Of a stretch of DNA of 20,687 nucleotides, positions 3,451-20,587 are shown one piece after another. Made by a program: the position numbers and the translations under genes. Origin of the DNA: a virus. The notes below the pieces were generated by a model, which was given only the letters and a program-made list of their open reading frames with translations, did no database searches and had not been told where the DNA came from. The stretch covers positions 1 through 20,687 of IMG/VR virus record IMGVR_UViG_3300027708_000340. One strand, written 5' to 3'. The stretch's first letter is position 1. Each line of letters opens with the position of its first letter.

Positions 3451-3524
3451 AGAGGGTAGTCGGTCTCGAACCGACCCTATTTCACATTGGAAGTGTGATG
3501 CCATACCTACTAGGCGATACCCTC
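3451..3524 (-). tRNA. tRNA-Gly(TCC)
   Basis: Acceptor GAGGGTA/TACCCTC, anticodon arm TCACA-CTTCCAA-TGTGA (TCC), T arm GTCGG-TTCGAGA-CCGAC. The stop codon of the GIY-YIG gene overlaps its first two bases. Confidence 0.93.
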
Positions 3525-4200
3525 ATTTTAACATTGTTCTCCCTAATTTCCATTCGGGGTACAAATGTATGTCATTTTTTTTGATTTTAATATTCTTCTC
3601 ACCATTAGTTAACCAACAAGTACCAAATTGTGAATTCTTTTCACCTTTTTGGTTTATTGAATTTTTCATTCCTATAATTTCTTTACTCTCTTCAGTATGT
3701 GTTCTCCCATAAAAACCCCAAGGACCTTCGTTCTCATATTTATCTTTAAGAGTTTTAGATATCTTATCATAATATTTCTTCTTATCTTCTTCACTTAAAC
3801 CATTATGGAATTTTTTAGATATCTCACTTTTAAAGTTTTTACCATATTTTTGTAGTAATATCTCATCCGTCTTTCTTCTACCCTTTTTAACCCCATCAGG
3901 ACTTATAAATCCACCTGACCCTCCAAAGGCAATATTAAGACACTTTTCGTCATTTAGTAATTCTTGATTAACAATCTCTTTTTCTTTTTCCTTTAAAATT
4001 TCTCTGTTTGGGTAAAAATCAATTATTTCCATTTTGAAGTTTTCTTTACCATATTTCTTCAAACTTCTTTTAATTCTGTAACCACTACCCATATAACCAT
4101 CATTTAGGTCATTTGTCGAGTGCATTCCAACATAAAATTCGTCATTTAATAAATTTACAATTTTATAAATGTAATGGGTTTTGTAAGGTTTTCTCGGCAT
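3523..4200 (-). CDS. GIY-YIG homing-type endonuclease
   Basis: 225 residues. The N-terminal GIY-YIG nuclease core is present in variant form: HYIYKIVN (Y10-I-Y12) and FYVGMHST (Y23-V-G25), then KKYGKENF. The middle is Lys-rich and low in complexity, as in DNA-binding linkers. The C-terminal stretch QFGTCWLTNGEKNIKIKK...YPEWKLGR resembles the conserved tail found in T4 Seg-type and related phage endonucleases. It should act as a free-standing mobile endonuclease. It sits inside a tRNA array, and its TGA stop shares two bases with the 5' end of tRNA-Gly(TCC), paralleling the HNH gene. Class B motif 10 nt before the ATG. Confidence 0.9.
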   Translation of the reverse strand: MPRKPYKTHYIYKIVNLLNDEFYVGMHSTNDLNDGYMGSGYRIKRSLKKYGKENFKMEIIDFYPNREILKEKEKEIVNQELLNDEKCLNIAFGGSGGFISPDGVKKGRRKTDEILLQKYGKNFKSEISKKFHNGLSEEDKKKYYDKISKTLKDKYENEGPWGFYGRTHTEESKEIIGMKNSINQKGEKNSQFGTCWLTNGEKNIKIKKNDIHLYPEWKLGRTMLK

Positions 4201-4796: not shown

Positions 4797-4803
4797 GTTT
4801 AAG

Positions 4804-4891
4804 TGACCCCGGTGGGACTCGAACCCACAACGGCTATACAGCTTCCCTACTGATTAAAAGTCAGTTGCGCTACCAATTGCGCCACGAGGTC
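4804..4891 (-). tRNA. tRNA-Lys(TTT) with enlarged variable region
   Basis: Acceptor GACCTCG/CGGGGTC, anticodon arm ACTGA-CTTTTAA-TCAGT (TTT), T arm GTGGG-TTCGAGT-CCCAC, discriminator A. The variable region is about 20 nt instead of 5; an extra segment of about 15 nt with a GCT/AGC mini-hairpin makes it resemble a type II tRNA, unusual for lysine. Confidence 0.9.
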
Positions 4892-4972: not shown

Positions 4973-4996
4973 ATTTTCCCAATATGTCAAAGAACC

Positions 4997-13351: not shown

Positions 13352-14424
13352 TAAAAAAACCTGTCAATTGACAGGTCAAATTAGAAAAGCCTGAGATTAT
13401 AGCTTATGTTAAGAAACTTTTGAAGGATTATTGTTTCCCTTCGTATCCACCACCTTTTGGGTAGTATTTCTTAGTGACGGTATTTTAGGTGTACCACTCC
13501 TTAAGGTTTGAATTACTCTATCAATACTTAACTCTTTCCGAGGTTGCCACCCCAGTTCGTCCTTGCGGGACTAAAGGTTTTTCTTAACAATACACATTGA
13601 CTTGGGGTCTCTGTATGCAATGAACGGCTCATTACTATGTAGTCACCTTTCACTCAAACCTGATGGACACTTTTCCTTTGTTATTTTGTAATAATTTTAG
13701 GTTTGTGTTGTAGATGTGTCAGAGTAGTGGTCCAACGTAAGCTCCGTCTCCTTTTGAGAAACGAAATACTAAACTACTCCGTGAAGTGTCCCCACCTCCA
13801 TATTCCAAGATTACTTCATAAAGAGACCTTGGTAGGTCTTCCTTAGGGATAGTAGCGGCACCACTCGTTCTCTATCTTACCTTTCGGTTTTAAGTCCTCT
13901 ATCATATTGGGACCCGCAATTATGTAACTGGATGGTCACATTTCTTACAGAGTTCCTATGGGTTATTCTTATCGTTCTTCCGAACTCAACCTGACAATCT
14001 ACTTTGCCATGTCACCCTACCATTTTCCCTACGAAGTTATCCTCGGTACTAAAGGTTTGGTGATATCCCACTTGTGTACTTGAGTTCAATCACCCTTACG
14101 GGGTTTCAAACCGCAGTTTCCTCAACACGAGGGAAACCACTTTATCCTACTTTCGTAGTTTATTTAAGGACCATACACGGCCCATTATCATTTATCAGAT
14201 TAAATGTCTCATAATCAACCCGAAGGTTTCATAATCAACTACTGAATGGATAATCTTTTTGTTTCAAAGAACGTTTCGGACATTTCCGATTTGTTTTACA
14301 AATTTACGACTTTTTTTTCTTTCTGTCAAGTAGTTTGTAAACTTTTTTTTTGATTTAACTACCGAGTATCTTTCATTCCCTATGAGTGTTAAATCTTTTA
14401 CAAACTTACGGCAAATATTCCGTA
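13352..14424 (-). ncRNA. large structured non-coding RNA (about 1.07 kb)
   Basis: All six frames are broken by stops and no small gene is convincing, yet the stretch is clearly organised and by eye richer in G+C than its neighbours. Read on the minus strand it begins after a class B motif (14430-14441) and ends at a perfect hairpin with a T run (13353-13376). Near the 5' end two nested long helices are exact: 14397-14405 with 14333-14341 (9 bp) and 14388-14395 with 14352-14359 (8 bp). Many local hairpins carry stable loops: CUAC-GAAA-GUAG (14148-14159), CCC-GUAA-GGG (14093-14102), GUUC-GGAA-GAAC (13975-13986), ACC-GAAA-GGU (13880-13889), ACC-UUCG-GGU (14218-14227), GACCU-ACCA-AGGUC (13825-13838) and GUCC-CGCAA-GGAC (13559-13571). 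The loops are GNRA or UUCG when read on the minus strand, which fixes the orientation. Size, ornate folding and a phage setting with tRNAs recall GOLLD and ROOL RNAs; I cannot confirm membership, and it may be a new class. Confidence 0.8.
13353..13376 (-). terminator. terminator of the large RNA
   Basis: Perfect palindrome ACCTGTCAATTGACAGGT (13359-13376) followed by seven T on the minus strand. Confidence 0.9.
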
Positions 14425-14429
14425 GTGTC

Positions 14430-14441
14430 AAATAAATATAT
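14430..14441 (-). promoter_or_regulatory. class B motif before the large RNA
   Basis: Minus strand GATATATTTATTT, directly after the Nudix stop codon; transcription would start near 14424. Confidence 0.45.
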
Positions 14442-19288: not shown

Positions 19289-20587
19289 TTACCCTTGTGT
19301 TTGTAAAATGTAATATGTTTCATCATTAAATTCAATAGTATCGTAATCACCATCGTAAGAGTTCAGTGTGTGACCAATACCGTCAGTTTGAATTAACCCT
19401 TCTTTAAATCCTTTTATATCTATAAAGTTTTCAATATTCAAACCATATTCTTCAATTACGTTCGCAGGGTCATCAACCAAATCATTAATTAAATCTTCAA
19501 CCTTTTCCTCAATTAAATTTTCAGGGACAGTTTTATCACTATCTCTTAACTCATCAAGTTCTTCATTTAATTCATCCTCTTTTTCTTGGTCTATTTCAGA
19601 ATCTTCCAAAAATAATTCAATTTCATCAATTCTTTTTTGAACTGCCGGGTCGGAATATTCAAAATCTTCCTCGTCAAAATAATCTTCAAGGTTTTCTCTG
19701 ACATTATGTTCTTCATCGTCTCTGAAAGTTTCCTTAAGTTCTTCAATATCAATATAATCTTCAACAAAACTTGAATTAAAACCTTTTATTCCGATATCAT
19801 CAATCAATTCATCAATTTTTTCATATGCCGACATGTGGGTGTCGTAATTATCACCAACCGCCCATCTTTCTTTTGATTCTTCTAATTCGTCAGTTAACAC
19901 ATAAAAAGTTCTCATACTATAATATTTGTAATCATAAACCAAATTATATAAGTCAATTCTTTTTTCAAGTTCTTCAATTTCTTCTTCAACAGCCTCTAAA
20001 TCCATCAAATTTTCATTATCTTCTGTTTCTTTCTCAATTTCCTCCATCCTTTCCTTCGCAGTATAGAGTTCCTGTAACCTTGCATCATGATTAGGCTCTT
20101 TAGCCTCATAATCACCAGAAGATGAAGTTAAAAATTCAAATAAAACATTTGCTAAAATTGCAATATCATTATTTGCAGTTTCTAAATTCCATTCATCATC
20201 TTGTCGTAAAACGTTTTGTTTTTCAAATTCAATCTGTCTTTGTTTTTTGATTTGAATTTGTTCATATGGTGTACCATATGTTGAAATATATTTGGTTTCA
20301 ATCCCCTCAATAGAGTTAATTTTGGTGTATGTTAGGTCTAAACTACCATTAACTGTGATATTTGTGATGTTATTAGCATCCGTACCTCTCAAACTTAAAT
20401 CACCATCAATAACAATTCGTTTACCTCTGAATTGTTTCATATTTTGAACCAATCTACCGTTATAATTAGTAAACTTTAATAAATCAATATATTGTTCAGG
20501 TGTTATAACAACACTCTCTTGACCTTCTTCCTCAACCAACATTTGAACAACCTTTTGTATTTGTGATATATCTATATTAACTCTCAT
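19289..20587 (-). CDS. large acidic coiled-coil protein with internal ITPEQ tag
   Basis: 432 residues. After a short start comes SVVITPEQYIDLLKF (about 24-38), an internal version of the recurrent tag. Residues about 54-105 (GDLSLRGT...NGSLDLTYTKINSIEGIE) look like a short leucine-rich or beta-solenoid run of the type found in large phage proteins. From about 150 it is highly acidic with long helices (RMEEIEKETEDNENLMDLEAVEEEIEELEKRI and several DDE/EEL runs), suggesting coiled coils. Perhaps a structural or scaffold protein; I recognise no enzyme. A class B motif (20596-20612) precedes the gene. Confidence 0.87.
   Translation of the reverse strand: MRVNIDISQIQKVVQMLVEEEGQESVVITPEQYIDLLKFTNYNGRLVQNMKQFRGKRIVIDGDLSLRGTDANNITNITVNGSLDLTYTKINSIEGIETKYISTYGTPYEQIQIKKQRQIEFEKQNVLRQDDEWNLETANNDIAILANVLFEFLTSSSGDYEAKEPNHDARLQELYTAKERMEEIEKETEDNENLMDLEAVEEEIEELEKRIDLYNLVYDYKYYSMRTFYVLTDELEESKERWAVGDNYDTHMSAYEKIDELIDDIGIKGFNSSFVEDYIDIEELKETFRDDEEHNVRENLEDYFDEEDFEYSDPAVQKRIDEIELFLEDSEIDQEKEDELNEELDELRDSDKTVPENLIEEKVEDLINDLVDDPANVIEEYGLNIENFIDIKGFKEGLIQTDGIGHTLNSYDGDYDTIEFNDETYYILQTQG

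Follow-up and report, generated by a model that had tools for sequence, protein, structure and literature searches.

A GOLLD gene of two domains, with its own promoter-like site, leader hairpin, boxA-like element and intrinsic terminator, was shown by computation to lie on the minus strand of the window, by which is meant the whole stretch of DNA analyzed, a 20,687-base IMG/VR virus record corresponding to a phage contig with an endolysin and a tRNA cluster. At a probability of about 0.75, this arrangement is read here as a two-domain GOLLD led by an rrn-type boxA, through which host NusB-NusE would antiterminate the synthesis of this RNA in a large phage of Bacteroidota, and the RNA would then assemble into a cage. 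Such an rRNA-type leader of GOLLD, which a large set of phage contigs has conserved, appears to be unreported in the literature searched: no report joining GOLLD and boxA was found in a search that was thin on subscription papers and did not include bioRxiv preprints, and the sole match for ROOL or GOLLD together with antitermination concerns, in the part of that source available, another matter.

The body of the RNA is of a known kind, GOLLD. A preliminary description of this DNA, made from the sequence alone, had proposed a member or a new class of giant RNAs such as GOLLD and ROOL, and had called for an Rfam search and a covariation check. A cmscan search of the window matched the Rfam GOLLD model (RF02032) on the minus strand at 13781-13388, over model positions 1-416 of 416, with a score of 318.9 bits (E 5.4e-91) against a cut-off of 150. 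Because the full model is matched above its cut-off, the stretch first described is a GOLLD gene; membership of GOLLD thus stands, and ROOL, for which the covariance-model search gave no window match at the gathering threshold, drops out. The claim that no gene lies there in any frame also held, since the longest open stretch in the six frames of 13388-14272 is 60 aa and just one ORF of at least 50 aa lies within the stretch, at 14264-14431 (55 aa), where it takes in nothing but the leader. The fold has a minimum free energy of -253.3 kcal/mol (z -3.1), and none of 20 shuffles was as good. The minus strand was favored when one alignment was folded both ways, giving -341.6 kcal/mol for the minus and -227.0 kcal/mol for the plus strand; G-U against A-C cells numbered 3920:318 on the minus strand and 832:1298 on the plus strand. 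The length of about 1.07 kb given at first needs correction: the structured RNA is real, but its main transcript probably runs from about 14290 to 13350 (approximately 0.94 kb), a longer transcript starting at a distal promoter-like site being possible.

Relatives were kept if they covered nearly the whole profile, measured 700-1300 bases and contained no N; 205 fetched loci, some sharing contigs, yielded 144 unique cores and, at 93% identity, 99 representatives. The 3' domain (13388-13781) corresponds to RF02032 positions 1-416, and the 5' domain of about 390 nt (13798-14186) falls outside the Rfam model. For this second part, an alignment was built from 45 of the 99 representatives, picked for diversity, of which 44 were aligned after one (L115) was left out because of an insertion of about 150 nt. 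Among these 44 divergent sequences, 97 consensus pairs are predicted and 78 of them show compensatory double changes, and 14186-13798 is a conserved second GOLLD domain. The insertion in the relative left out (L115, 2406-3394) is A/T-rich and located in its 5' domain.

Over all 99 representatives, the RNAalifold consensus comprises 237 pairs. The covariation check, an R-scape-like test whose null was a GTR+G simulation of 20 replicate alignments (not R-scape itself), found 44 of 423,660 column pairs reaching E 0.05, 37 of which belong to the 237-pair consensus. The seven significant pairs outside the consensus are base-pair compatible in 93-100% of sequences and include one pair of a GGUGAC x GUCAC pseudoknot, as well as a contact between a loop and a junction. 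In the pseudoknot helix, GUGAC at 13642-13646 faces GUCAC at 13478-13474 (columns 659-825 significant, neighbors compatible). In the loop-junction contact, the loop base 13605 covaries with 13675 (columns 627-697: GC 41, CG 52, AT 5), and this loop is a candidate for the intermolecular kissing contact L20-J13/15, bridge B7, an assignment of our own. The solved GOLLD homologue, env-38, is a homo-14-mer cage whose bridge B8 has GC or CG loop centers (PMC12286853), and the loop taken here for L21a likewise has GC or CG centers among relatives. Contacts like B7 and B8 look to be kept at the sequence level, consistent with the homo-oligomeric cage that homology to env-38 suggests for the RNA of the window.

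A further contact is predicted between the two domains, from complementarity among relatives. The 5'-domain hairpin loop GUAG (13999-14002) and the 3'-domain junction CUAC (13710-13713), read as 14002-13999 and 13713-13710 on the minus strand, are complementary at four of four bases, G-U allowed, in 97 of 98 sequences, and 95 sequences achieve this by six fully Watson-Crick sets, though E is no better than 3.5 for the best single column pair. An A/U-rich variable linker can be placed at approximately 13681-13704 from the sequence and the RF02032 match; in the cryo-EM structure of the GOLLD homologue, the linker is disordered and lies inside the cage (PMC12286853). The 3' domain also contains a Shine-Dalgarno-like segment, AAGGAGUG (13502-13495, minus strand), largely kept in these GOLLDs and in the Rfam consensus, and ribosomes are described as binding GOLLD in pull-downs (PMC12286853).

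Upstream of the RNA, the promoter-like motif noted in the preliminary description proved to be two minus-strand sites of the form TTTG/TTG-N20-TANNTTTG, which we take to be a Bacteroidota-type promoter motif. The distal site, TTTG-N20-TAAGTTTG, spans 14432-14401 and the proximal one, TTG-N20-TAAATTTG, spans 14329-14299. Sigma-70-like sites in the region were at chance level (12 found, 11.5 expected), and that scan was dropped for this reason. The TANNTTTG box was seen upstream of 16S in most of the Bacteroidota 16S leaders inspected; among the 98 representatives with a boxA, it precedes boxA in 66, by 26-28 nt in 45. The two nested long-range helices described earlier are probably those found at 14406-14332, an outer one of 10 bp (14406-14397 with 14341-14332) and an inner one of 8 bp (14395-14388 with 14359-14352). 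Both are exact, but they sit in the distal leader, upstream of the proximal promoter, so that placing them as two helices of the 5' domain was rejected; because the outer arm and the -7 box of the distal promoter share bases, the outer helix may never be transcribed whole. The inner pairing corresponds to a leader hairpin element, GATTTAAC...GTTAAATC (8 bp, 14352-14395), after the distal promoter, and a similar element directly precedes boxA in several relatives.

In the window, the position just before boxA is occupied by another leader hairpin, UCGGAAAUGUCCGA (14276-14289), which has hairpin counterparts in relatives; in the E. coli rrn leader, this place is held by boxB. Of 98 representatives, 77 have a hairpin whose end lies no more than 14 nt from boxA, compared with a mean of 37.4 and a maximum of 50 in shuffles. 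Because shuffles often form a hairpin too, this is a weaker point, although stems whose sequences vary among relatives while their pairing is kept do support the hairpin. After boxA comes a variable arm paired by eye, UUAUCCAUU...AAUGAUAA (14187-14259), which holds the UUCG hairpin and, as had been claimed, two copies of TTGATTATGA flanking it. Hairpins with GAAA, GUAA, GGAA and UUCG loops could indeed be read by eye on the minus strand, and the terminator described as perfect was found again as an 8-bp stem (13377-13358) with a T tract after it.

The boxA-like element itself, GTTCTTTGAAA (14262-14272), stands directly before the RNA. Its core, GTTCTT[TA][GA], occurs within the 160 nt preceding the first 5'-domain helix in 98 of the 99 representatives (50 shuffles: mean 2.8, maximum 6) and in none of the 99 within the first 160 nt of the RNA; the one representative without it is L092, from the megaphage LR756502. 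The element is kept while the sequence upstream varies widely, consisting of a promoter-like site, a tRNA or other hairpins, and 8-122 nt separate it from the first helix among relatives. It was considered whether these are ordinary GOLLDs in which the conserved GTTCTTTGAA serves the RNA structurally, by pairing or by a protein contact inside the cage, and is no transcription signal. Such a role would fit the fact that in 98 of 99 representatives it stands on the RNA's own transcript, at the 5' end, and RNAalifold pairs the motif with a conserved AAGGAGU of the 3' domain (93% of cells paired). However, no significant covariation was seen for this pairing, and the motif is retained where its proposed partner has changed, so that the pairing was rejected as the cause of boxA conservation; with the variable spacing, and with the same motif found before tRNA clusters and tmRNAs and upstream of 16S, a structural role is considered unlikely.

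The Lactobacillales GOLLDs bear on the same question. Three Streptococcus loci (L319, L322 and L324, the last ending at a contig edge) share the 3' domain at 211-275 bits. Their 5' domain is different and shorter, at about 310 nt as judged by eye, and the RNA has no boxA-like motif nearby; a loose form was seen a single time, in L322, where the 3' domain begins 778 nt further downstream. GOLLDs that lack the motif speak against its being a structural part of the RNA. They also rule out boxA as a trait of all GOLLD: given their other 5' domain and the missing nearby boxA, the element is a trait of the clade of the window, and the boxA-led form is a variant within GOLLD.

Outside the GOLLD leaders, 13 of 16 Bacteroidota records have the exact nonamer GTTCTTTGA contained in the boxA-like element upstream of their 16S, against a maximum of 1 in 200 shuffle rounds, and 8 of 11 do when counted by genus, several records being close relatives; in one example (L340), it lies about 154 nt upstream of the 16S start (532). 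These 16 leaders come from at least 21 Bacteroidota records with a 16S start in a plasmid collection, the match in the other five lying at or near the record end. The exact nonamer is missing upstream of 16S in the remaining three, Flammeovirga and the only Flavobacterium and only Chryseobacterium sampled, although named phages with related endolysins include Flavobacterium and Cellulophaga phages. The phage nonamer is thus that of 13 of 16 leaders from the phylum at large, which may not be the host's own, and several of the matching leaders also have a TANNTTTG box upstream.

Within the 99 phage loci (974 kb), 109 strict sites of the motif were counted, whereas whole-locus shuffles gave 7-17 in all. 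Most are at GOLLD (71), a tRNA follows within 200 nt in 16 cases, a tmRNA stands downstream of 3, and the remaining 19 lie elsewhere, several of these last resembling, by eye, tmRNA starts missed by ARAGORN. In three tmRNAs of the 99 loci, the boxA-like motif is 14 nt upstream. The window itself has two sites against 0.25 expected (at least two in 3 of 100 shuffles), the second being GTTCTTTGACA at 4985-4995 on the minus strand, directly before the tRNA cluster. Since several stable-RNA units of these phages bear the motif, and since a protein encoded by the phage itself acts at the nut sites of lambdoid phages (PMC10250234), it could be a phage-specific signal, such as the site of a phage antiterminator or late transcription factor, that merely resembles boxA. 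This is distinctly unlikely, because 13 of the 16 Bacteroidota records show the identical nonamer upstream of 16S, several of them with the TANNTTTG box as well. In E. coli, NusB together with NusE (S10) binds boxA, which is both necessary and sufficient for the rrn antitermination complex to form (PMC10250234).

The GOLLD gene is preceded by a Nudix gene and followed by two small ORFs and a GH19 endolysin gene, which begins 0.5 kb downstream on the same strand. The preliminary description had the RNA transcribed late together with the lysis region, and a role in lysis as part of a late lysis transcript would agree with this position, with the rise of GOLLD RNA in lytic infection (PMC12286853; PMC7567579) and with the noncoding RNA of about 800 nt that also adjoins the lysis cluster of ICP1 (PMC7567579). 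Joint transcription was not borne out, as GOLLD has its own promoter-like site and terminator, a blastn match to the RNA was obtained in only 23 of 80 loci of endolysin relatives (the best 80 of 489), and in three records (G029, G031 and G049) GOLLD lies at least about 20 kb from the endolysin. Many endolysin loci are short, so that a missing RNA match is weak evidence of absence. In Lactobacillus brevis, moreover, GOLLD is reported as dispensable for phage production (PMC7567579), and a lysis transcript is on balance very unlikely.

As to the proximity to tRNA genes, also mentioned at first, a tRNA or tmRNA was located within 1.5 kb of GOLLD in 47 of the 99 representatives, and a tmRNA in 9 of them (for example L090, 948-1344), but the 12 ARAGORN tRNAs of the window are about 8 kb away. 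Unusually long variable regions were noted in a tRNA-Lys of 89 nt (window 4803-4891, minus strand) and, in a relative, a tRNA-Trp of 86 nt (L039, 19194-19279). The tRNA region of the window also contains HNH and GIY-YIG endonuclease genes (57-719 and 3523-4200, both minus strand), likely homing endonucleases. In two megaphages (L095 and L096), tRNA-like genes with D-loop insertions flank GOLLD, and a similar tRNA starts after its terminator, as judged by eye.

Many environmental phage contigs bear GOLLD relatives, and near-identical copies occur on other contigs. When whole records were searched, RF02032 was matched in 7 of 50 records (8 matches) and in 20 of 34 records. Among 50,697 records of named phages, blastn found the RNA in only two, the freshwater megaphages LR745206 and LR756502, both confirmed by the Rfam model, and the exact 5'-domain pattern had no match in the contigs of 84,980 prokaryote species. 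One contig of 58,992 bases (G004) has two GOLLD genes, at 36280-36673 and 19736-20149 (loci L084 and L090), 89% identical in the 3' domain, one beside an endolysin and the other beside a phage tmRNA; mixed cages from this pair are conceivable. That the gene of the window is a non-functional or decaying remnant is hardly credible: the structure is full-length and shows compensatory changes, the signals are intact, other contigs have near-identical copies, and no evidence was found in support of decay.

Compared with known systems, the RNA of the window agrees with RF02032 and env-38 in having the 3' domain over all 416 positions and a variable linker, in being phage-borne and often near tRNAs, and, likened by length, in a separate 5' domain (residues 1-420 in env-38, about 390 nt here); it differs in its rrn-type leader with boxA. 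ROOL is likewise a giant phage RNA that forms a cage (PMC12286853), but the window has no match at the ROOL cut-off. The ICP1 RNA is similar in size and in its place beside lysis genes, but in the available text it is likened to GOLLD and ROOL by length only, and ICP1 is described there as having no tRNAs (PMC7567579). The rrn leader with boxA and Nus factors shares the order of a promoter-like site, often a hairpin, and GTTCTTTGA, then a long structured untranslated RNA, whereas the putative boxA here precedes not rRNA but a phage GOLLD, and also tRNA clusters and tmRNAs. A boxA is also found upstream of some bacterial CRISPR arrays, where it is thought to block Rho (Stringer et al. 2020, via PMC7862264); these too are long untranslated RNAs, but belong to host arrays and not to an ornate phage RNA.

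Taken as a transcription signal, boxA would act as follows. Host RNA polymerase would start near 14290, and host NusB-NusE(S10) would bind the boxA of the emerging leader as it does on ribosomal RNA. The resulting antitermination complex may then keep the polymerase going along about 0.9 kb of untranslated RNA, which Rho would otherwise attack, so that, in this proposal, recruitment of NusB-NusE would make its transcription processive. The RNA would fold during synthesis and, like the solved homologue, form a closed homo-oligomeric cage around its linker, and the published guess for the role of such a cage is that it encloses the linker or another molecule. The host would be a member of the Bacteroidota, judging from the promoter form, boxA and distant protein matches only, and the phage is presumably large. 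A bolder version, which can be held only tentatively and is on the improbable side, makes GOLLD a ribosomal-RNA mimic: its abundant boxA leader would take over rRNA antitermination and may also titrate NusB-S10, lowering the synthesis of host rRNA and favoring the phage tRNA, tmRNA and GOLLD units, which bear the same boxA.

Few known structured RNAs are as large as the GOLLD RNAs, and the short signal that the leader in this family of phages shares with the rRNA leaders of many related bacteria suggests how the phage gets a long untranslated RNA made. The conserved host-type boxA names candidate factors (NusB-S10 with NusA and NusG) and a mechanism for GOLLD synthesis. For the megaphage LR745206, boxA further hints at a host among the Bacteroidota; its sister, Mar_Mega_1, has no host assigned with certainty (PMC9723777). 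Finally, the set of 99 representatives extends the covariation evidence to the 5' domain and to the interdomain loop contact, in a clade that is scarce among named phages.
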